64,000 nt of DNA from Thioalkalivibrio sp. ALJ21 (GCF_000378605.1 NZ_KB905156.1:601209-665208), one strand, 5' to 3'; shown: positions 1,621-11,025, counted from the stretch's first letter. Translations and numbers: made by a program. The notes: generated from the sequence alone by a model not told the origin.

Positions 1621-3639
1621 TTACGGGCGCCAGCCGAACTCGTCGGCCTTCTGGCGGGCCAGCGCCGGGATGTCGGTGGCGACGAACTTCTCGTGCAGCA
1701 CCTGCACCCCGATCATGTGGTTGATCACCGCGTCCAGCTGGACCTGGGTGGCCGCCGGGGTGTTCTCGTCCTCGTGGATCTCGAACACGCGCCGCACGCC
1801 CTCCGGGTCCAGCAGGCCCGCCTCGGCCACCTTCTCCGGCGACAGATAGCGATCGGCCAGGGCCTTCATCGCCGCCCACTTGACCGGGTCCGTGTGCGCG
1901 GGCGGGGCCATGAACGCGAATTTCTCGCGCTCGTAGAGCACCTTGGGCAGCAGGCCTTTCATCGATTCGCGCAGCACGTACTTCTCGGTGCGACCCTTGA
2001 TGCGCATGGTCGGCGGGAGGTGGGCGCAGAACTCGGCCAGGTGGTGGTCGAGAAACGGCGGGCGCGCCTCCATGGAGTTGGCCATGTCCATGCGATCACC
2101 ACCCCAGGTCAGGATCTGCCCCTCCAGCATGGTCTTGATCCAGACGTACTGGGCCTTGTCCAGCGGGTGGCGGCCATCCAGCATGTCGTCGTCCAGGGCG
2201 TTGGCGATCGCACGGCCGGGCTGATAGCCCTGCATGCGCTCGCGGCGCTCCGGCGCCAGCAGGCCGGGCACGTGCTCGGCCGCCGCCAGCCAGGGCTGCA
2301 GACAGGATGGGGTAAAGCCCATCATCTTCGTAAACTCGGGGTCGTCGACCTCGTCCTCGGCCAGCATCGCACCCGAGAACAGCTCGTTGGACTCGTTCAG
2401 CATCTGCTGCCAGGCGGCGCGGTCGGCCTCCGGCAGGGTGTCCAGGCCGTGCAGGAACATGTCACGGCGGAAGGCCGGATAGCCGCCGAACAGCTCGTCC
2501 GAGCCCTCGCCGGTGACCACTACCTTGTAGCCCGCCTCGTTCACGTGACGGCTCATCAGCAGCTTGGCCACGCCGAGGGTGTTGTAGATGGTGCGCTCGG
2601 CGTGCCACAGGGCCTCTTCGAAGTTGTCGTAGAGGTGGTCGGCATCCAGCTTCAGGATGTCCTGGTCGGCACCGACGCTCTCGGCCATCTCGCGGGCAAT
2701 CGCGGTCTCGTCGTAGTCATCGTTGTCGAAGCCGATGGTGAAGGCCTTGACCGGTGACTGCTGGCTGGCCGAGGCCAGGCCCAGGGTGATGCAGGAGTCG
2801 ATGCCGCCGGAGAGGTAGCAGGCCACCGGCACGTCGGCCTCCAGGCGCAGCTGGACGGCCTCCATCAGCTGTTCGCGCACACCCTCGATCCAGTAGTTTT
2901 CGTCGGTGTTCTCCTCCGGCGGGCGCTCGGAGGCCAGCGGGAAGTCCATGTCCCAGTATTTCTCCTGGCGCACCTTGAGCTTGCCGTGGGCGCGTTCGAC
3001 GATGACCATGTGGCCGGGTTTCACCTGCTGGATGCCCTCGAAGGCGGTGGTCCCCGGGACCATGGTCTGCATCAGCTGGTGGTACAGGCCGTCATCGGCA
3101 AACTGGCGCGGGACGTCGGGGTTGGCGAACAGCACCTTCAACTCGGAGCCGAACACGAAGCTGCCATTGGCCTCGGTGAAGTAAAGCGGCTTGATGCCGA
3201 ATCGGTCGCGGATCAGGACCAGGCGGTCACGCTTGCGGTCATACAGCGAGATCGCGAACTCCCCGCGGAAATGCTTGATCGCATCCTCCAGCCCCTCACG
3301 CTGGTACAGGTGCATGACCATCTCGGAGTCGCTCTTGGTGCGGAACTGCACCCCGCGCGAGGTCAGGTCGGTACGGATGCGCTTGTAGTCGTACAGCTCG
3401 CCGTTGACCGCGGTCATGATCTCGCCATCGGTCAGGCAGAACGGCTGGCGGCCACGATTCTCGTCCAGATCGATGATCGACAGCCGAGCATGCGAGAACC
3501 CCACCCCGCGATCATCCTGCGTCTTGTAGCCGAAGCCGTCGGGGCCGCGGTGATACTGGATCGCGGCCATGTTGACCAGGGTCTGAGGGTCCACCTTCCG
3601 GTTGGGGTCGGCGTGAAAGATTCCGGCGATGCCACACAT
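1621..3639 (-). CDS. Asparagine-synthetase-like glutamine amidotransferase (last gene of the putative solute operon)
   Basis: A 672-residue class II amidotransferase/asparagine synthetase. The glutaminase domain starts with the catalytic Cys2 (MCGIAGIF after Met removal) and has HRGPDG (30-35), NGELYDY (79-85) and SDSE (103-106). The synthetase domain has the PPi loop SGGIDS (277-282) and GEGSDELFGGY (377-387). It should release ammonia from glutamine and place it on an AMP-activated carboxylate. Classical AsnB makes asparagine, but relatives amidate other carboxylates; AsnO in the N-acetylglutaminylglutamine-amide osmolyte pathway amidates an alpha-carboxyl group. Lying 88 bases after an unusual carbamoyltransferase in the same operon, amidation of a carbamoylated amino acid is the inferred role. 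The start has AAGGAGA six bases upstream. Plain asparagine synthesis remains possible. Confidence 0.88.
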   Translation of the reverse strand: MCGIAGIFHADPNRKVDPQTLVNMAAIQYHRGPDGFGYKTQDDRGVGFSHARLSIIDLDENRGRQPFCLTDGEIMTAVNGELYDYKRIRTDLTSRGVQFRTKSDSEMVMHLYQREGLEDAIKHFRGEFAISLYDRKRDRLVLIRDRFGIKPLYFTEANGSFVFGSELKVLFANPDVPRQFADDGLYHQLMQTMVPGTTAFEGIQQVKPGHMVIVERAHGKLKVRQEKYWDMDFPLASERPPEENTDENYWIEGVREQLMEAVQLRLEADVPVACYLSGGIDSCITLGLASASQQSPVKAFTIGFDNDDYDETAIAREMAESVGADQDILKLDADHLYDNFEEALWHAERTIYNTLGVAKLLMSRHVNEAGYKVVVTGEGSDELFGGYPAFRRDMFLHGLDTLPEADRAAWQQMLNESNELFSGAMLAEDEVDDPEFTKMMGFTPSCLQPWLAAAEHVPGLLAPERRERMQGYQPGRAIANALDDDMLDGRHPLDKAQYVWIKTMLEGQILTWGGDRMDMANSMEARPPFLDHHLAEFCAHLPPTMRIKGRTEKYVLRESMKGLLPKVLYEREKFAFMAPPAHTDPVKWAAMKALADRYLSPEKVAEAGLLDPEGVRRVFEIHEDENTPAATQVQLDAVINHMIGVQVLHEKFVATDIPALARQKADEFGWRP

Positions 3640-3668
3640 GGCATGTCTCCTTGGTTCGATTCCGTGGG

Positions 3669-3707
3669 GCGAGCGGGGCGCGCTTTACGGCGCGCCACGC
3701 CGCTCGC
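3669..3707 (-). other. GC-rich hairpin between carbamoyltransferase and amidotransferase genes
   Basis: The 88-base gap holds two arms, GCGAGCGGGGCGCGC and GCGCGCCACGCCGCTCGC, that can pair into a long hairpin around a six-base loop. There is no run of U after it on the minus strand, so it is not a simple terminator. It may stabilise the upstream mRNA or tune expression of the last gene. Function is inference. Confidence 0.45.
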
Positions 3708-3727
3708 GGTTCAAGTTCAACGCTGGC

Positions 3728-4810
3728 TCAGCCTTCCGGGGTATCCATGACCGCGCTGATCCGGCGGACCACCGTGGTCAGCAGCGCCATTCGCACGAAC
3801 ACAGCCCCGCGGGCCTGGGCGAAGTACCAGTTGTGCGGGGTGTCGTCGAGGTCCGTGGAGAGCTCGTCACCCCGCGCCAGCGGGTGCAGGATGACCGCGC
3901 CCTTCTTGAGAGGGGAGTTGCGATCCAGCTTCAGGCCCTCGCCCATGGATTCGAACGTGTCCCCCACCCAGGCAATGGCGTTGATGTAGACGACGTCCAG
4001 TTCCGGCAGCAGCGGGTCCAGTTCGTGCGCCACGCGCAGCTTCAGGCCGGCCTCTTCCAGCTCCTCGCGCTGGCCCGGGTCAAAATTCTCGTCCTCGCGG
4101 GAGATGATTACGACCTCCTCGATGGCCTCGGGGAACAGGCTCAGCAGGCGCAGCAGCGAACGCACCGTGCGCATGCGCGAGGGCACCCCGATGATGCCGA
4201 CCTTGATGCGCTCCTCCGGCGCCACCGGGCCGGTGAACAACTGCGGTCGCCACTTGGCCAGGGTGTAGACGTCGGCCAGGGCCTGGGTCGGATGCTCGTC
4301 GATCCCGTTGCCGGCGTTGACCAGCGGGATGCGCAGGTTCTCCAGCATGTTGTGCGCCGCCTCGCCATCCGAGGAGCGCAGCACGAGCACGTCGCCGTAG
4401 TTGTTGAACATCTCGGCGATGTCCGCCAGCGACTCGCCCTTGGCGATCCCGGTGCTCTTGGGGTCGGTGATCGACATTACCGCCCCGCCAAGCCGGTGCC
4501 AGGCGCTCTCGAACGACAGCCGCGTGCGAGTGGACGGCTCGTAGAACGCGCTGATCAGGATCTTGCCGGCCAGCGGCAGGTGCATCAGCGCCGGGGTGGT
4601 CTCGTACTGCGCCGCCAGACGGAACAACTGGAGGAGTTCGGCGCGCGAGAACTGCTGACTGGAGACCACATGCGCGGCCGCGAGCTTCAGCAGCGGGTCC
4701 GGGTCTTCCTCCACGGCCTCGAGGAGCGCCTTCGGGCGGTCGGTGCCGGCGGCGCCGTCTTTCGGGTGGAGCACGTGCAGGGGATCTTCGGTGTAGTTCA
4801 CCAGAGGCAT
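3728..4810 (-). CDS. Carbamoyltransferase of the aspartate-carbamoyltransferase family with altered amino-acid site
   Basis: A 360-residue protein that transfers a carbamoyl group from carbamoyl phosphate. The carbamoyl-phosphate site is intact: STRTR (93-97), K124 in the 80s-type loop, R145, and HPTQ (173-176). R214, equal to E. coli PyrB R167, which holds the alpha-carboxylate, is also kept. But the segment matching PyrB Y-M-T-R-V-Q reads Y-I-N-A-I-A (275-280), so R229 and Q231, which hold the aspartate side-chain carboxylate, are both Ala, and HPLPR is HPLAR. This argues for an acceptor without a side-chain carboxylate, for example glutamine. There is about 40 residues of extra N-terminus compared with E. 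coli PyrB. The ATG at 4810 is preferred over upstream codons because they lie inside the overlapping small gene; the start is translationally coupled to it. It is not expected to be the pyrimidine-pathway enzyme. Confidence 0.85.
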   Translation of the reverse strand: MPLVNYTEDPLHVLHPKDGAAGTDRPKALLEAVEEDPDPLLKLAAAHVVSSQQFSRAELLQLFRLAAQYETTPALMHLPLAGKILISAFYEPSTRTRLSFESAWHRLGGAVMSITDPKSTGIAKGESLADIAEMFNNYGDVLVLRSSDGEAAHNMLENLRIPLVNAGNGIDEHPTQALADVYTLAKWRPQLFTGPVAPEERIKVGIIGVPSRMRTVRSLLRLLSLFPEAIEEVVIISREDENFDPGQREELEEAGLKLRVAHELDPLLPELDVVYINAIAWVGDTFESMGEGLKLDRNSPLKKGAVILHPLARGDELSTDLDDTPHNWYFAQARGAVFVRMALLTTVVRRISAVMDTPEG

Positions 4811-4920
4811 CCTTTTTTCCAGTCGCGAATGAACAGGGCCAGCAGCAGGATCGGGGTCAGGGTGGCGACCAGCGTGGCAACCACCACGATCACGGACAAG
4901 GCGGTAGACGAGATCATCAT
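4798..4920 (-). CDS. 40-residue single-TM peptide, likely symporter accessory subunit
   Basis: A short gene found by reading the gap between the symporter and the carbamoyltransferase. It encodes 40 residues starting MMISSTALSV and ending with RDWKKGCLW. Residues 7-32 form one long hydrophobic helix, followed by a basic C-terminal tail. Its ATG overlaps the TGA of the symporter gene (ATGA), and its own end overlaps the start of the carbamoyltransferase gene by 13 bases in another frame, which is a typical sign of coupled translation. Tiny one-helix partners are known beside NSS and SSS transporters, and this context fits that role. The exact partner is inference. Confidence 0.72.
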   Translation of the reverse strand: MMISSTALSVIVVVATLVATLTPILLLALFIRDWKKGCLW

Positions 4921-6383
4921 GCGCTCCGGACCTCCTCGGCCGCGGCGTCGCGGGACAGGCGATCCCAGTCAAACGGCCGCGGCGCCAGCCAGGTACTCAG
5001 CACCATCACGGCCAGGGAGACGGCCGCGCCCACCAGTGCCGCGACATAGAAGCCGATCAGGAAATAGCTGGCCAGCCCAATGCCCGACCCCAATATCATC
5101 GACCAGGCCGCGCCCTGAGGGTTCGCTCGCCGCCAGTACAGCCCGGCGACGATCGGCCAGATCGCCGAGGCCACGAAGGCCCCCGTAAAGTACAGCAGCT
5201 CGGCCAGCGAGCCGATGATCGGCAGCGAGCCGCGATAGCTCGCGGCCAGCCAGGTCAGCAGCCCCAGCAGCACCACGATCACCTTGGTCGCGCGGAACTG
5301 GTTCTGCTCGCTGGCCTGCGGACGGATATGGCCGCGGTAGATATCACGGGTGACCAGGTCCGAGGTGGCCGCCAGCAGCGAGTCGAGGCTTGAGGCCAGT
5401 GCGGCGAAGACAACGATGAAGACCACGATCGCGCCGGTCAGCCCAAGCACCTCGGCCGCGACCAGCGGCCCGACCATGTCCGCCGCAGGCACGTTGATGC
5501 CCAGCGCTGGCGTGGCCAGGGCGATGAAGCCGGCGACGATCGGGATCGGCAGCCACAGCAGCCCGCCCAGCAGGTAGGCGCGGAAGCCGACGTTGCGGCC
5601 AAAGGCAAACGCGCGCGACCACCAGACATTGGAATGGAAGATCTCGCCGACCCCGAACAGCAGGTTGTTGAACAGGAACATGATCGCGGCCGGGAACAGC
5701 AGGCTCAGCAGTTCCGGGCGCTCTTCCATCAGGTTGAAGTGGATCGCCTCGAATCCAACCTTGTCGATGGTCAGCCAGGCAATGAACGCCGCGCCCGCGA
5801 TGATGATGATGGTCTGGATGAAGTCGGTACCGATGACCGCGCGCAGACCGCCCAGCAGGGTGTAGATCACGCAGACCGTGAGGATCACGGTCATCCCCAC
5901 GCGGTAGTCGATCCCGGCCAGGGCATTGATCAGCACCCCGCCGGCCATGGCCATCGAGACCAGCCAGCCGAAGGCGTAGATCAGCGAGACCACCAGGAAC
6001 ACGCGCCAGGTGAAGGTGCCGAAGCGCAGACGGATGAAGTCCCCGGAGGTGAAGCCGCGCGGCATCAGCTCGCGGATGCGTCGCGCCAGCGGCGCGAACA
6101 GGATCAGGCCCAGCGCCCCCAGCGAATACCCGAGCATGCCCCAGACACCGAGCTGCAGCGCCAGCTGGGGGGCGGTCATCGTGGTGTTGGCCGTCACCCA
6201 GGTGGCCATCGCGGTCGCGGTAGCCAGCGCCAGCCCCACGTTGCGACCGGCCAGCATGTGGTCCTCGGCGGTCTTGTTGTGACGACCCAGCCACCAGCCG
6301 AGCACCACCCAGAGGATGCTGAACGCGATCAGCAGCCCCCAGGCGATCGAACTCGGGAGGATCGGGTCGTCGAGGCCGGTCAC
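4917..6383 (-). CDS. Sodium:solute symporter (SSS family)
   Basis: A 488-residue inner-membrane protein with about 12-13 hydrophobic segments and the LeuT-like SSS layout (start ILPSSIAWGLLIAFS; GRNVGLALATATAMATWV around 47-64; ASSLDSLLAATSDLVTRDIY in the middle, the usual SSS sodium-site region). SSS proteins take up solutes such as proline, pantothenate, sugars or ureido compounds with Na+. The GTG start overlaps the stop of the upstream amidohydrolase gene (GTGA), and the stop overlaps the small-peptide gene, so the three are almost surely co-translated. Substrate is unknown; from the neighbours a ureido- or amide-type solute is likely. Confidence 0.9.
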   Translation of the reverse strand: MTGLDDPILPSSIAWGLLIAFSILWVVLGWWLGRHNKTAEDHMLAGRNVGLALATATAMATWVTANTTMTAPQLALQLGVWGMLGYSLGALGLILFAPLARRIRELMPRGFTSGDFIRLRFGTFTWRVFLVVSLIYAFGWLVSMAMAGGVLINALAGIDYRVGMTVILTVCVIYTLLGGLRAVIGTDFIQTIIIIAGAAFIAWLTIDKVGFEAIHFNLMEERPELLSLLFPAAIMFLFNNLLFGVGEIFHSNVWWSRAFAFGRNVGFRAYLLGGLLWLPIPIVAGFIALATPALGINVPAADMVGPLVAAEVLGLTGAIVVFIVVFAALASSLDSLLAATSDLVTRDIYRGHIRPQASEQNQFRATKVIVVLLGLLTWLAASYRGSLPIIGSLAELLYFTGAFVASAIWPIVAGLYWRRANPQGAAWSMILGSGIGLASYFLIGFYVAALVGAAVSLAVMVLSTWLAPRPFDWDRLSRDAAAEEVRSA

Positions 6384-7123
6384 GAGGCCTCCTTCACCTT
6401 CTTGATCTCGCGGATCGCCTCGTCGGTGGTCATCACGCGGGCGTAGCGATCCTTGATGGTGGTGATCGTCGCCTTCTGCATCTCCGGGGTCACCGTCGCG
6501 GTGGCGTCGTCCATCAGCGTGACATAGAAGCCCAGGTCACAGGCATCTCGCACGGCCGTGGATACGCACTCGTTGGAGTACACACCCACAATGAAGAGCG
6601 CCGAGATGTTCAGGTTGCGCAGGATGTAGTGCAGGTTGGTCGAGTTGAAGACCCCGCTGGCCGTCTTGTCGAGGACGATCTCGTCGCCCACCGGTGCCAC
6701 CTGCTCGACGAACTCCGCGTCCTTGGAACCGGGCGCGGCATGCAGCCCCAGGCGCTTGTGCCCCGGGCTGCGGTCGCGGCCGTCGTGGGTCAGCGAGCGG
6801 ATGCGCGTGTGGATCACCTCCAGTCCCTGCTCGCGGAACGCATCCTGCAGCCGGCGCACGTTCGGCAGCACCGTCTGCTCCAGGCGGTTGAAGTAGTACT
6901 CCTGCGCCTCGGGCGGCACGCCCGACTGCACCGAGTCGGCGAACACGCCATGACCGCGCGCGGCGTCCAGGTACTGCAGGTCGATGCACAGCAGGGCGAC
7001 GTGATGCTCGCGCAGCTCCTGACGCAGAACCGGCGTCGTGATCAGGCTCTCCTGGTACTGCTCGCGCAGCGGATCCAGGGAGTCGTAGTCGGTCAGCTGG
7101 GAGACGTTGTCGTTATTGGCCAT
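6380..7123 (-). CDS. Isochorismatase-fold cysteine amidohydrolase
   Basis: A 247-residue member of the cysteine hydrolase family that includes N-carbamoylsarcosine amidase, nicotinamidase and ureidoacrylate amidohydrolase. The catalytic triad is visible: D48 (CIDLQ), K153 (DKTASGVF) and C186 (YSNECVSTAVRDA), with the typical cis-peptide context just before Cys186. Such enzymes cut a C-N bond of an amide or ureide. It carries an extra N-terminal stretch of about 40 residues before the first strand. AAGGA lies eight bases upstream of the ATG. In this operon it could remove an amide or carbamoyl group from the solute imported or made by its neighbours. Confidence 0.9.
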   Translation of the reverse strand: MANNDNVSQLTDYDSLDPLREQYQESLITTPVLRQELREHHVALLCIDLQYLDAARGHGVFADSVQSGVPPEAQEYYFNRLEQTVLPNVRRLQDAFREQGLEVIHTRIRSLTHDGRDRSPGHKRLGLHAAPGSKDAEFVEQVAPVGDEIVLDKTASGVFNSTNLHYILRNLNISALFIVGVYSNECVSTAVRDACDLGFYVTLMDDATATVTPEMQKATITTIKDRYARVMTTDEAIREIKKVKEAS

Positions 7124-7159
7124 GCCGGGCGGTCCTTGGGTCGCGGTGATCGGGGATGC

Positions 7160-8401
7160 TCACGAACGGGCGGCCAGGGCCAGGGCGCTTTGCAGCGTCA
7201 GGTTGGCGCCGGTCTCGATGTCCTCCCAGTTTGTCCATTCCGCCGCGGAATGGCTACGCCCCTGCAGGCTCGGCACGAAGATCATGCCGGTACGCGTGAT
7301 CGCGCTCATGCTCTGGGTGTCGTGCGCGGCCCCGCTGGGCATGGTCAGGTACTCCAGACCCATGCGTTCGGCGGTCGCCTCGATGGTCTGCACGATGCCC
7401 GTATCACAGCGGACCGGATCGATCTCGGAGAGCACGTCGAACTCGAACATCAGGTCGCGTCGACGCGCGAGGCTGGACAGCGTGCGACGGGCCGCATGGG
7501 CCAGCGCGGTCAGGACCTTCTCGTCGGTATCGCGCACCTCGAAGGAGAAGGTCGCCATGCCCGGCACGGTGTTGGCCGCACCCGGCGAGAGCTCCACGCG
7601 GCCGATGGTCGCGCGCGAGTTCGGGCTGCCGTGCTCCTCCAGCAGGCGATTGATCTCGCCACCGAATTCGGCCAGCCCCTGAAAGGCGTCGATGCGCATG
7701 TCCATCGGCGTGGTGCCCGCATGGTTCGGCTGCCCCTTCAGGCGCACCTCCCACTTGAACAACCCGGTGATGGCCTCGACCACACCCACGCTCAGGCCGC
7801 GGCGGTCCAGCACCGGGCCCTGTTCGATGTGGGTCTCGATGAAGGCATGCAGGGTGTGCGGGTCGCGCCGCGCGCTCAGGGCGTCGTCGGCATTCAGGCC
7901 CCAGTTGGCCATCGCCTCGACCAGGGTGATGCCCTCCAGGTCCCGGGCATGACTGATGCTCTCCGGGGTCAGCTTGCCGGCCATCGCCTGCGAGCCGAAC
8001 ATGCCGCCGAACCGGCCCTCCTCGTCGGTGAAGTCGATCACCTCCAGCGGATACTGCAGGTCGACCTCCTGTTCCTTGGCCGTGCGCAGCACCTCCAGCC
8101 CGATCAGGACGCCCAGGGCACCATCCAGCGGGCCGCCGCCGGGGACGGTATCGAGATGCGAACCCATCGCGACCACCGGGCGCTTGCCGTCGTAGTCCAG
8201 TCGACCATGCAGGTTGGCGGCACCGTCCTGCCAGACGTCGAGGCCCGCGGCCTCCAGGCGGCCGCGAAACCACTCGCGCCCGGCGCGGTCGCCCTCGCTG
8301 AACGCACGGCGGTGCAGGCCACGGTCGGCGTCGCGTCCGATCTGCCCCAGCTCGGTAATGTCCTGCTGCAGGCGCTGCATGTTGATCTTGAGTTCGTGCA
8401 T
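7160..8401 (-). CDS. M20-family Zn-dependent N-carbamoyl-L-amino acid hydrolase / allantoate amidohydrolase type
   Basis: A 413-residue binuclear metallohydrolase. Predicted metal ligands are H82 (SHLDT), D93 (DGALG), E127/E128 (TDEEG), H191 (THIEQG) and H384 (GRSHS). The order and spacing match the HyuC/AmaB/beta-ureidopropionase/allantoate amidohydrolase branch, which hydrolyses a carbamoyl-nitrogen bond to free amino acid, CO2 and ammonia. The dimerisation domain includes QPNHAGTTPMD near 225-235. An ATG at 8422 is in frame, but 8401 is preferred because GGAG lies seven bases before it. It is well suited to undo the product of the nearby carbamoyltransferase. Confidence 0.9.
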   Translation of the reverse strand: MHELKINMQRLQQDITELGQIGRDADRGLHRRAFSEGDRAGREWFRGRLEAAGLDVWQDGAANLHGRLDYDGKRPVVAMGSHLDTVPGGGPLDGALGVLIGLEVLRTAKEQEVDLQYPLEVIDFTDEEGRFGGMFGSQAMAGKLTPESISHARDLEGITLVEAMANWGLNADDALSARRDPHTLHAFIETHIEQGPVLDRRGLSVGVVEAITGLFKWEVRLKGQPNHAGTTPMDMRIDAFQGLAEFGGEINRLLEEHGSPNSRATIGRVELSPGAANTVPGMATFSFEVRDTDEKVLTALAHAARRTLSSLARRRDLMFEFDVLSEIDPVRCDTGIVQTIEATAERMGLEYLTMPSGAAHDTQSMSAITRTGMIFVPSLQGRSHSAAEWTNWEDIETGANLTLQSALALAARS

Positions 8402-8470
8402 CGTGTTCTCCGGTGGGGCCACCGGCCCCGGTCGCGGTTCACGCGGATCGACGGGGCGGGGCGAGTGAAT

Positions 8471-8872
8471 TCAGTCGCGCGGGCGGCCGCGCAGGATGGC
8501 CACGATCAGGACCAGAAAGACGACGCCCCCCAGCGCGAAAAAGCCGAACGCACGGGCCAGGCTGTGGTGCGCTACCTCGACCCGGGCCTCGTCGGCCCAG
8601 TCGTCCGCGCCATCGGCCCGCAGGCGAAAGCGATATTCGCCGTCCGGGAGACCGCTGATCACGCTGCTGGTGTCGCCGCCGCGGTAGATCACACGGGCGT
8701 CGTCGAAATCCGGACCGCTCGCCTGTTCGAGTTCGACGGGCCCCTCGGCGTTCCATTCGAGGGTTAGACCACCATCACGGGAGTCCGCGGGCGGGTCGTC
8801 AAAACGAGGCTCGGCCAGTGCAACCAGCGGCAGCAGCAGAAGCAGCAGGCTCGCGGGCAGGAGGGAGCGCAT
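8471..8872 (-). CDS. Exported, membrane-anchored protein with fibronectin-III-like domain
   Basis: A 133-residue protein that I do not recognise by family. It has a clear signal peptide (MRSLLPASLLLLLLPLVALA, likely cut before EPRF), about 75 residues that look like one small beta-sandwich (LTLEWNAEGPVELEQAS... YRGGDTS, then SGLPDGEYRFRLRA, a fibronectin-III-like pattern), and one C-terminal transmembrane helix with a basic end RGRPRD. It would be held in the inner membrane with the domain in the periplasm. The gene lies 26 bases after marR and 69 bases before the M20 gene, so it belongs to the operon. Role unknown. Confidence 0.75.
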   Translation of the reverse strand: MRSLLPASLLLLLLPLVALAEPRFDDPPADSRDGGLTLEWNAEGPVELEQASGPDFDDARVIYRGGDTSSVISGLPDGEYRFRLRADGADDWADEARVEVAHHSLARAFGFFALGGVVFLVLIVAILRGRPRD

Positions 8873-8898
8873 GGCGCGTTTCCTGACGGCCACGCCGA

Positions 8899-9447
8899 TC
8901 AGGTTTTCACCTCGAACGGCTGCAGACCGGCACGCGGCTCGGTGGTGTTCATCGCATCGACCAGCAGGGTCAGCCCCTGATCCAGCTCCGCCAGGCGCTC
9001 GGGCGGGAGGGCGTGCAACGCGCGGTTCAACTCGCCCTGGGGGGCCGCCGGGGCGTCGGACAGGAGCGCCTCCCCCTTGGGCGTGACATACAGGCGCACG
9101 ATGCGTTGGTCCTTCTCCGGGCGGCGGCGCTCGACCAGCCCGCTGTATTCCAGCTTGTCCAGCAGGTTCGAGGTGGTCGAGGCATGCACCGACAGCCGGC
9201 GCGAGAGGTCGCTGACATTCAGCCCGGGCGTACGCTGCAGCTCCCACAGGGCCCACAGCTGCGAGGCACTGATCCCACAGGCGCGCTCCACTGCCCGCGA
9301 GTGCCCCTGCAGGGCGCGAATGATCACGCGCAGCTGACGGATCACGGAACGCGGCAGATCCGGTTCCCCTTCCGTCGCGGGGCGTTGAGGTTCGTTCTGG
9401 GCAGAAACAGCTGACATCACAGTCGGGCTCAGTGTGGCTATTGCCAT
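8899..9447 (-). CDS. MarR-family transcriptional regulator
   Basis: A 182-residue MarR protein (172 if it starts at the ATG at 9417). The winged helix-turn-helix is clear: ISASQLWALWELQR, LSVHASTTSNLLDKLEYSGLVERR (about 85-108) and the wing with PEKDQRIVRLYVTPKG. MarR proteins bind palindromes as dimers and usually repress their own operon until a ligand or stress releases them. It is the first gene of the minus-strand operon, and a 23-base near-palindrome overlaps its promoter. EctR, a MarR protein controlling ectoine synthesis in methylotrophs, is a precedent for osmolyte control. Neither start has a good ribosome binding site. Confidence 0.88.
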   Translation of the reverse strand: MAIATLSPTVMSAVSAQNEPQRPATEGEPDLPRSVIRQLRVIIRALQGHSRAVERACGISASQLWALWELQRTPGLNVSDLSRRLSVHASTTSNLLDKLEYSGLVERRRPEKDQRIVRLYVTPKGEALLSDAPAAPQGELNRALHALPPERLAELDQGLTLLVDAMNTTEPRAGLQPFEVKT

Positions 9448-9493
9448 ATAGTTTTGTACAAAAATACTATTAGCGCAAGTCTGGGCTACTCAA
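9448..9493 (-). promoter_or_regulatory. Promoter and palindromic operator of the marR operon
   Basis: On the minus strand TTGAGT (9488-9493) and TAGTAT (9464-9469) are 18 bases apart and fit a sigma-70 promoter. Positions 9448-9470 form a near-palindrome: ATAGT and ACTAT ends around the perfect 12-base core TTTTGTACAAAA. It covers the -10 box and start point, the usual place for MarR autorepression. The local AT richness stands out from the surrounding GC-rich DNA. Binding is inference. Confidence 0.5.
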
Positions 9494-9725: not shown

Positions 9726-9785
9726 ATGCTGCACACCAACCTTCTCGCGGCGGGACTGGGTCAGTTGTCTCCTCAGGATGCGTGA
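9726..9785 (+). CDS. Possible 19-residue leader peptide
   Basis: ATG at 9726 follows AGAGGGG by five bases, a strong ribosome binding site, and opens a 19-codon frame (MLHTNLLAAGLGQLSPQDA) that ends 34 bases before the start of the outer-membrane protein gene. It could be a leader that couples translation or senses a signal, or simply chance. There is no run of regulatory codons that would point to attenuation. Confidence 0.3.
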   Translation: MLHTNLLAAGLGQLSPQDA

Positions 9786-9819
9786 CCTCCCTGACAGACC
9801 TTTTCGGGAGGAGTACAGC

Positions 9820-11025
9820 ATGGACAAGTACACGTTGAACCGGCCCCTGGGGCTCGGGCTGTCCGGAGCCATCGTGCTCGCCTTGACCCTTGGCCCGCAG
9901 TCCGCGGCCGCGGAGTACGAAGGCATCCAGGTGGGGAATCTGACCATCGGGGGTGCGCTGAGGGCCAACTACATCCTGGGTGACTATCCCGACGGCGATC
10001 GACGCGAATGGGGCAAGGGTGGCGATTTCACTCTGGACACCGCCCGCATCAATCTCGATTACGAAAACGGGCCGTGGCTCGGCAAGTTCGAGTACCGCTG
10101 GTACGAGGGCTATAACATGCTGCATACCGGCTGGGCAGGCTATCGCTTCGACAACGAGAGCCAGCTCGAGGTCGGCGTGACGCGCGCGCCGTTCGGCCCG
10201 GGACCGTACGGTGTCTCCCAGAGCTGGTTCTTCGACCAGCACTATTACCTCGGCCTGTCGGACAACATGAACCTCGGTGCCAAATACACGATGCCGATGG
10301 GCGACTGGACCTGGGATTTTGCTTATTTCTATTCCGATGCCGGGTCCTACTCGGGTGACACCGAGGACAGCGCTCGCTACTCCTACGACGTCGTCAACGA
10401 GACCGGGGATGGCTTTGAGGAACGCAACCAGGTGAATGTCCGCGGGATCTACAGCATCCCGGATACCGATCACGAGGTGGGCTTCTCGGCGCAGTACGGA
10501 GAGCTGCGCAGCCGCGGGCCTCAGGATGACGGGGACCACTTCGCGGTGTCCGGTCACATGGTCAACAGCTGGGGCAACTGGACACTGGCCAGTCAGTTGA
10601 CCTACTACAAGATGGATGTGGACGAGCACACGCTGCTCGACGGCAGCGTCACGGATCGCCGGATCGATATGGGTGCTTACGACTTCCCGAACACCGTGGC
10701 CACTGAGGGCTGGATCCCGGCCGTATCACTCAGCTACTACCACGAGACCCCGAATATCGGCTGGCTCGACTACGTTATCCCCTATGCGGAATTCAGCTCA
10801 GTGGTGAAAAGCGAGAGCGACTTCAACAACAGCGACCTTCTGGTGCTGGGGGCCGCCTGGGGCCGAGGCAACTGGTACATCTATACGGATCTCGCCTACT
10901 CCAACGGCAACGAGTTCGTCGGTGGCAACCGTCGCGGCGACAATCCGTTCGGTGACCGTCTCGGTGCCAACGAAGATGACAACTGGGAAGCCCGCTTCAA
11001 TATCAACTTCGGGTACTACTTCTGA
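9820..11025 (+). CDS. Outer-membrane beta-barrel porin-like protein
   Basis: A 401-residue protein with a signal peptide (cut after AAA, before EYEG) and repeated amphipathic strands with many Trp, Tyr and acidic residues, ending with the outer-membrane signature NINFGYYF, where a C-terminal Phe directs assembly by the BAM machinery. The layout resembles phosphate-selective-porin and alginate-type barrels rather than OmpC-like trimers, but the exact family is not certain. The ATG at 9820 is fixed by GGGAGGAG eight bases upstream. It lies 149 bases ahead of the BCCT transporter gene and is divergent from the marR operon, so it may supply solute across the outer membrane. Confidence 0.82.
   Translation: MDKYTLNRPLGLGLSGAIVLALTLGPQSAAAEYEGIQVGNLTIGGALRANYILGDYPDGDRREWGKGGDFTLDTARINLDYENGPWLGKFEYRWYEGYNMLHTGWAGYRFDNESQLEVGVTRAPFGPGPYGVSQSWFFDQHYYLGLSDNMNLGAKYTMPMGDWTWDFAYFYSDAGSYSGDTEDSARYSYDVVNETGDGFEERNQVNVRGIYSIPDTDHEVGFSAQYGELRSRGPQDDGDHFAVSGHMVNSWGNWTLASQLTYYKMDVDEHTLLDGSVTDRRIDMGAYDFPNTVATEGWIPAVSLSYYHETPNIGWLDYVIPYAEFSSVVKSESDFNNSDLLVLGAAWGRGNWYIYTDLAYSNGNEFVGGNRRGDNPFGDRLGANEDDNWEARFNINFGYYF

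Follow-up and report, generated by a model that had tools for sequence, protein, structure and literature searches.

Which genes make N-carbamoyl-L-glutamine 1-amide (CGA), and does a compact operon that joins a carbamoyltransferase to a relative of asparagine synthetase supply them? CGA is recorded as having been isolated in 1991 by Galinski and Oren, according to their citation in PMC1224877; Ectothiorhodospira marismortui is the one reported source, in which CGA is reported to be a minor solute. No description of genes for its biosynthesis was found in the open-licence literature, an absence that is itself weak evidence. The operon considered here lies in a 64 kb stretch of DNA (the 'window') from Thioalkalivibrio sp. 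ALJ21, which has a genome of 2.96 Mb and relatives within Thioalkalivibrio.

A preliminary description of the window had suggested that this operon serves the synthesis and recycling of CGA as an osmolyte. That interpretation is supported by the presence of the genes in the one reported CGA producer, by the pairing of the two proposed synthetic genes, by their rarity, and by a changed acceptor site in the carbamoyltransferase. Gene content, conservation, co-occurrence of the synthetic pair, active-site residues, presence in the producer and conservation of the operator were all computed directly. Taken together, they make the operon the strongest candidate to date for the CGA genes that have been missing: we assign a probability of about 0.6 to its being responsible for CGA synthesis, recapture and breakdown, and regard it as quite probable that it makes a carbamoylated, amidated amino-acid solute in the general sense.

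Gene content and order of the operon

The operon is encoded on the minus strand and contains, in order, a MarR-family regulator (8899-9447; PF01047, E 2e-15), an FN3-like protein that is exported and anchored by a C-terminal membrane helix (8471-8872), an M20-family N-carbamoyl-L-amino acid hydrolase (7160-8422; TIGR01879, 370 bits and above the cut-off), an isochorismatase-fold amidohydrolase (6380-7123; PF00857, E 7e-33), an SSS sodium:solute symporter (4917-6383; PF00474, E 1e-33), a 40-residue single-helix peptide (4798-4920), a carbamoyltransferase of the aspartate carbamoyltransferase (ATCase) fold (here 'CTase'; 3728-4810; OTCace_N, E 1e-38) and an AsnB-like glutamine-dependent amidotransferase (1621-3639; Pfam Asn_synthase, E 5e-90, together with GATase), with families assigned by Pfam and NCBIfam profile searches. 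The arrangement is compact, and starts and stops overlap by a few bases at the junctions that run from the isochorismatase-fold gene through the symporter and the 40-residue reading frame to the CTase, the start of which is most likely the ATG at 4810 and not the TTG at 4972. The gene content given in the preliminary description is confirmed by these searches, with every named gene present on the minus strand and in tight order; the FN3-like gene had been missed, so that the operon is slightly larger than described, and the tiny symporter partner mentioned there exists and corresponds exactly to the 40-residue reading frame.

A divergent BCCT osmolyte carrier had also been associated with the cluster. 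The carrier is present (E 2e-178), but a porin-like gene lies between it and the operon, and the linkage is not consistent, with BCCT carriers found in only two of the related loci, the flanks of which were covered to approximately 8 kb. The porin-like gene (9778-11025, divergent and furnished with a signal sequence) has no Pfam or NCBIfam match, and adjoins the cluster in several Thioalkalivibrio. On the other side, a PfkB-type, fructokinase-like sugar kinase (679-1566) converges on the AsnB-like gene, and a similar gene is found downstream of that gene in several Ectothiorhodospira loci; this kinase may be related to sucrose, another osmolyte.

The carbamoyltransferase and the amidotransferase

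A single scan of genome contigs yielded 167 relatives of the CTase, the best 80 of which were compared using residue numbers mapped on E. coli PyrB (aspartate carbamoyltransferase). In ATCase, R167 binds the alpha-carboxylate of aspartate, while R229 and Q231 bind its beta-carboxylate. The CTase has the PyrB fold (the predicted model, at pLDDT 85, is of the ATCase fold) and the PyrB carbamoyl-phosphate site, with S52, T53, R54, T55, K84, R105, H134 and Q137 kept in all 80 of the relatives compared; E50 and R167 are invariant across the same 80 sequences. Unlike PyrB, all 80 carry alanine, serine or threonine in place of R229 and alanine or serine in place of Q231, and further acceptor-site changes (K232 to W, T228 to N and P268 to A) accompany a score of 194.6 bits against the ATCase equivalog TIGR00670, under its cut-off of 236.95. 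Previous work on ATCase established that E233 orients R229 and that E50 does the same for R167 (PMC6056424); the CTase family keeps the second of these pairs, and the R229-E233 pair, including the glutamate, is gone.

Judged by these residues, the CTase is not an aspartate enzyme. Because R167 is kept and R229 and Q231 are lost, its acceptor is predicted to be an L-amino acid whose alpha-carboxylate is free and whose side chain carries no carboxylate, a prediction that is compatible with glutamine and is no proof of it. The same prediction further suggests that carbamoylation would precede alpha-amidation. The preliminary description had held that a transferase restricted to aspartate would contradict its interpretation; the residues for aspartate specificity have been lost. 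Identification of the gene as an ordinary pyrB or argF was ruled out, as both are found elsewhere in the genome and their acceptor residues differ. Separately, a group of CTase paralogues at approximately 40% identity (L148, L149 and L150, with larger stretches in L151-L153) lacks a partner AsnB and displays a degraded carbamoyl-phosphate loop, reading for example VNRTRFSFES or SRSHTRLSFNS versus STRTRLSFES; these are probably non-catalytic carbamoyltransferase-like proteins.

The AsnB-like protein scores 424 bits against TIGR01536 (cut-off 267), and its Cys1 nucleophile and SGG(I)DS ATP pyrophosphatase motif (SGGIDS in the window's own copy) are kept in 22 of 22 sequences; it belongs to a clade of its own, monophyletic with an UFboot value of 100. 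Against TIGR03104, the family of the amidotransferase AsnO of the N-acetylglutaminylglutamine amide (NAGGN) pathway, it reaches 304.9 bits under a cut-off of 570.1, and it falls in a separate clade. Cut-off scores, motif alignment and the tree ruled out both an ordinary asparagine synthetase and the NAGGN enzyme AsnO. Alpha-amidation by the asparagine synthetase superfamily is nevertheless precedented by the NAGGN pathway, in which an AsnB-family enzyme amidates an alpha-carboxyl group to give an uncharged, glutamine-based osmolyte; by its sequence, the cluster's enzyme is a different one, belonging to another amidotransferase clade, and the proposed cap is a carbamoyl group in place of the N-acetyl group. 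A separate TIGR03104 protein is also encoded in the genomes of E. mobilis, T. sibirica, E. shaposhnikovii and the window's organism; in the last of these it is a true NAGGN amidotransferase (G000:C1:1203045-1204817, 915 bits), so that a second glutamine-based osmolyte is probably made there.

Hydrolases, transport and regulation

The closest structure to the M20 protein is the L-carbamoylase 3n5f (E 1.5e-81), and its metal ligands and carboxylate-binding asparagine and arginine, which it has in common with N-carbamoyl-L-amino acid hydrolases and with ErtE, are kept in all 39 relatives; unlike ErtE, it scores under the cut-off of the ErtE equivalog (391 bits versus 520) and sits with a synthetic pair. 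The isochorismatase-fold enzyme has a D48-K153-C186 triad that is conserved in 40 relatives, one of which is not covered at D48. Since carbamoylases act on free carboxylates, we infer that a 1-amide would be taken off first; relatives of the isochorismatase-fold enzyme also attack carbamoyl groups, and carbamoyl removal is the other activity proposed for it. Both hydrolases are missing near many CTase-AsnB pairs and are therefore considered accessory.

Among solved structures, the symporter matches the urea symporter DUR3 best (E 7e-33), a resemblance in keeping with a ureido solute. The FN3-like protein has no Pfam family; it lies beside the symporter in 41 loci, its predicted model (pLDDT 89) has an FN3 fold, and it is likely a symporter partner of an apparently undescribed type. 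The 40-residue hydrophobic peptide likewise has no family match, and similar peptides, with a basic/Trp tail of the form D-W/Y-K-x-x-x-(L/I)-W, are found between symporter and CTase in distant genera; it is likely an accessory subunit, and both small proteins look like partners that accompany the symporter.

Ectoine genes are known to be repressed by EctR (PMC5924519). The MarR protein of the cluster is 37% identical to one MarR encoded upstream of ectA-ectC, and may be of the EctR type. The ectoine operon with EctR is similar to the arrangement proposed here, in that a MarR-type regulator heads a compatible-solute operon, and differs from it in that its synthetic enzymes are unrelated to the CTase and the AsnB-like protein. 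A putative palindromic operator, TATTTTTG-TA-CAAAACTA as read on the minus strand, occupies positions 9449-9466 directly ahead of the operon, and is the only site in the 64 kb with two or fewer mismatches to the core. It is conserved before the regulator in all Thioalkalivibrio and Ectothiorhodospira loci that have the cluster MarR; in another locus (L087) the regulator lies at the opposite end, and the FN3 gene that leads the operon is still preceded by an almost identical palindrome. The palindrome was not seen in most loci of the Idiomarina/Kangiella type. Five Pleionea-like loci (L064, L066, L071, L081 and L088) share another palindrome ahead of the FN3 gene; its form is TAATTTGAnnnCAAAnTA, and it is perhaps a second type of operator.

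Distribution of the pair and weighing of explanations

The CTase and AsnB-like genes are neighbours in 78 of the 80 named loci that represent the best 80 of the 167 relatives (in L028 the AsnB-like gene is truncated where the contig stops); of the two exceptions, one is a contig that ends at the CTase (L055) and the other is Thiorhodospira sibirica (L050), in which both genes are present but unlinked. The two hydrolase genes lie between the members of the pair in 7 of the 78, mostly in Leptospiraceae and Spirochaetaceae bins. Across 369 gammaproteobacterial genomes, the two genes (scored as present above 300 bits for the CTase and above 500 bits for the AsnB-like protein) occur in exactly the same 23, a pairing far beyond chance; an AsnB at 42% identity in one further genome and CTases at 40% identity in others form separate groups. 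Phylum-wide, the CTase is found in 2 of 398 genomes, one of them the window's own, and the distant carrier (47-48% identical) keeps the order FN3-symporter-CTase-AsnB with a divergent M20 gene. Within the window's genus the CTase is present in all 23 genomes that are at least 90% complete, and the six genomes that lack it do not exceed 80% completeness. Searches of plasmids found only ordinary PyrB and distant AsnB.

The type strain DSM 4180T is listed as E. marismortui (PMC7824335), and Ectothiorhodospira mobilis DSM 4180 is thereby identified as the reported CGA source. Its CTase is 71% identical to that of the window (and recurs at 100% identity in genome G035, of the same family as the window), within a cluster that reads MarR-M20-isochorismatase-CTase-AsnB and is devoid of the symporter. 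The preliminary description had recommended looking for an adjacent pair in a known producer, and had named as unfavourable its absence from producers or its prevalence in non-halophiles; the pair is present and adjacent in this producer, and its phylum-wide occurrence is as low as given above. T. sibirica, in which no osmostress genes are annotated and CGA has been proposed as a possible solute, carries both genes as well.

Judging from their names, nearly all of the named hosts come from marine, saline or soda-lake habitats. Of the 23 carriers, only two have ectoine synthase, and their scores for NqrA are no more than marginal; across the 369 genomes neither marker shows a positive association with the pair. 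Proteome acidity, expressed as the DE/KR ratio, is 1.09 in 19 carriers versus 1.06 in 49 non-carriers (p 0.26, from C1 fragments no longer than 20 kb). As these markers are unsupportive, the link to salt rests upon the producer, the habitats of named hosts and the regulator.

In the proposed pathway, the ATCase-like enzyme would use carbamoyl phosphate to carbamoylate L-glutamine at its alpha-amino group, with R167 holding the alpha-carboxylate and a side-chain carboxylate no longer needed; the AsnB-like enzyme, using ATP and glutamine, would then amidate the alpha-carboxyl group of the N-carbamoyl amino acid to give an uncharged solute. Solute that leaks from the cell would be imported by the DUR3-like symporter with its FN3-like and 40-residue partners, and broken down to glutamine by removal of the 1-amide (isochorismatase-fold enzyme) and then of the carbamoyl group (M20 carbamoylase), while the EctR-like regulator would bind the conserved palindrome ahead of the operon.

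The same chemistry and osmolyte role might instead involve another acceptor, such as asparagine or some other neutral amino acid, or else glutamate; CGA would then be made in some lineages only. The pocket evidence establishes only that the pair binding a side-chain carboxylate is absent, and the family spans 47-100% identity; the pocket residues, however, hardly vary among the relatives, the CGA producer included, which argues for one substrate and leaves a different acceptor rather unlikely. The operon might also serve the catabolism of an imported ureide, which the symporter would bring in and the hydrolases would split, with the CTase running in reverse to provide carbamoyl phosphate for ATP. 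The DUR3-like transporter and the two hydrolases of the cluster would fit such a role, and so would a homologue of carbamate kinase encoded in the window's genome (G000:C1:1229483-1230370; TIGR00746, 339.7 bits against a cut-off of 358): the statement of the preliminary description that no carbamate kinase is present holds for the cluster, from which this gene is far removed, and not for the genome. In six other carriers, however, matches to carbamate kinase are weak or lacking, and this argues against catabolism as the general role; the conserved core consists of the CTase and an ATP-consuming, synthetic AsnB, the hydrolases are dispensed with near many pairs, and Ectothiorhodospira loci have no transporter, so that ureide catabolism appears improbable. 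A carbamoylated amide might also be produced for another purpose, be it the storage of nitrogen, signalling or secondary metabolism; the high nitrogen content that the product would have and the lack of correlation of the pair with ectoine synthase, NqrA and proteome acidity might be cited for this. Such a purpose is likewise doubtful, given the saline or alkaline habitats of almost all named hosts, the EctR-like regulator and a presence throughout the near-complete genomes of the window's genus that is unlike most secondary metabolism.

Synthesis, recapture and breakdown of CGA remain the preferred explanation, and the operon offers a specific two-enzyme test for CGA synthesis. Genome surveys of osmoadaptation, that of T. 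sibirica included, are at present blind to this solute, and the operon would give them a genetic marker for it. The CTase itself represents a subfamily with a changed acceptor site, the members of which are likely to be called aspartate carbamoyltransferase by automatic annotation.
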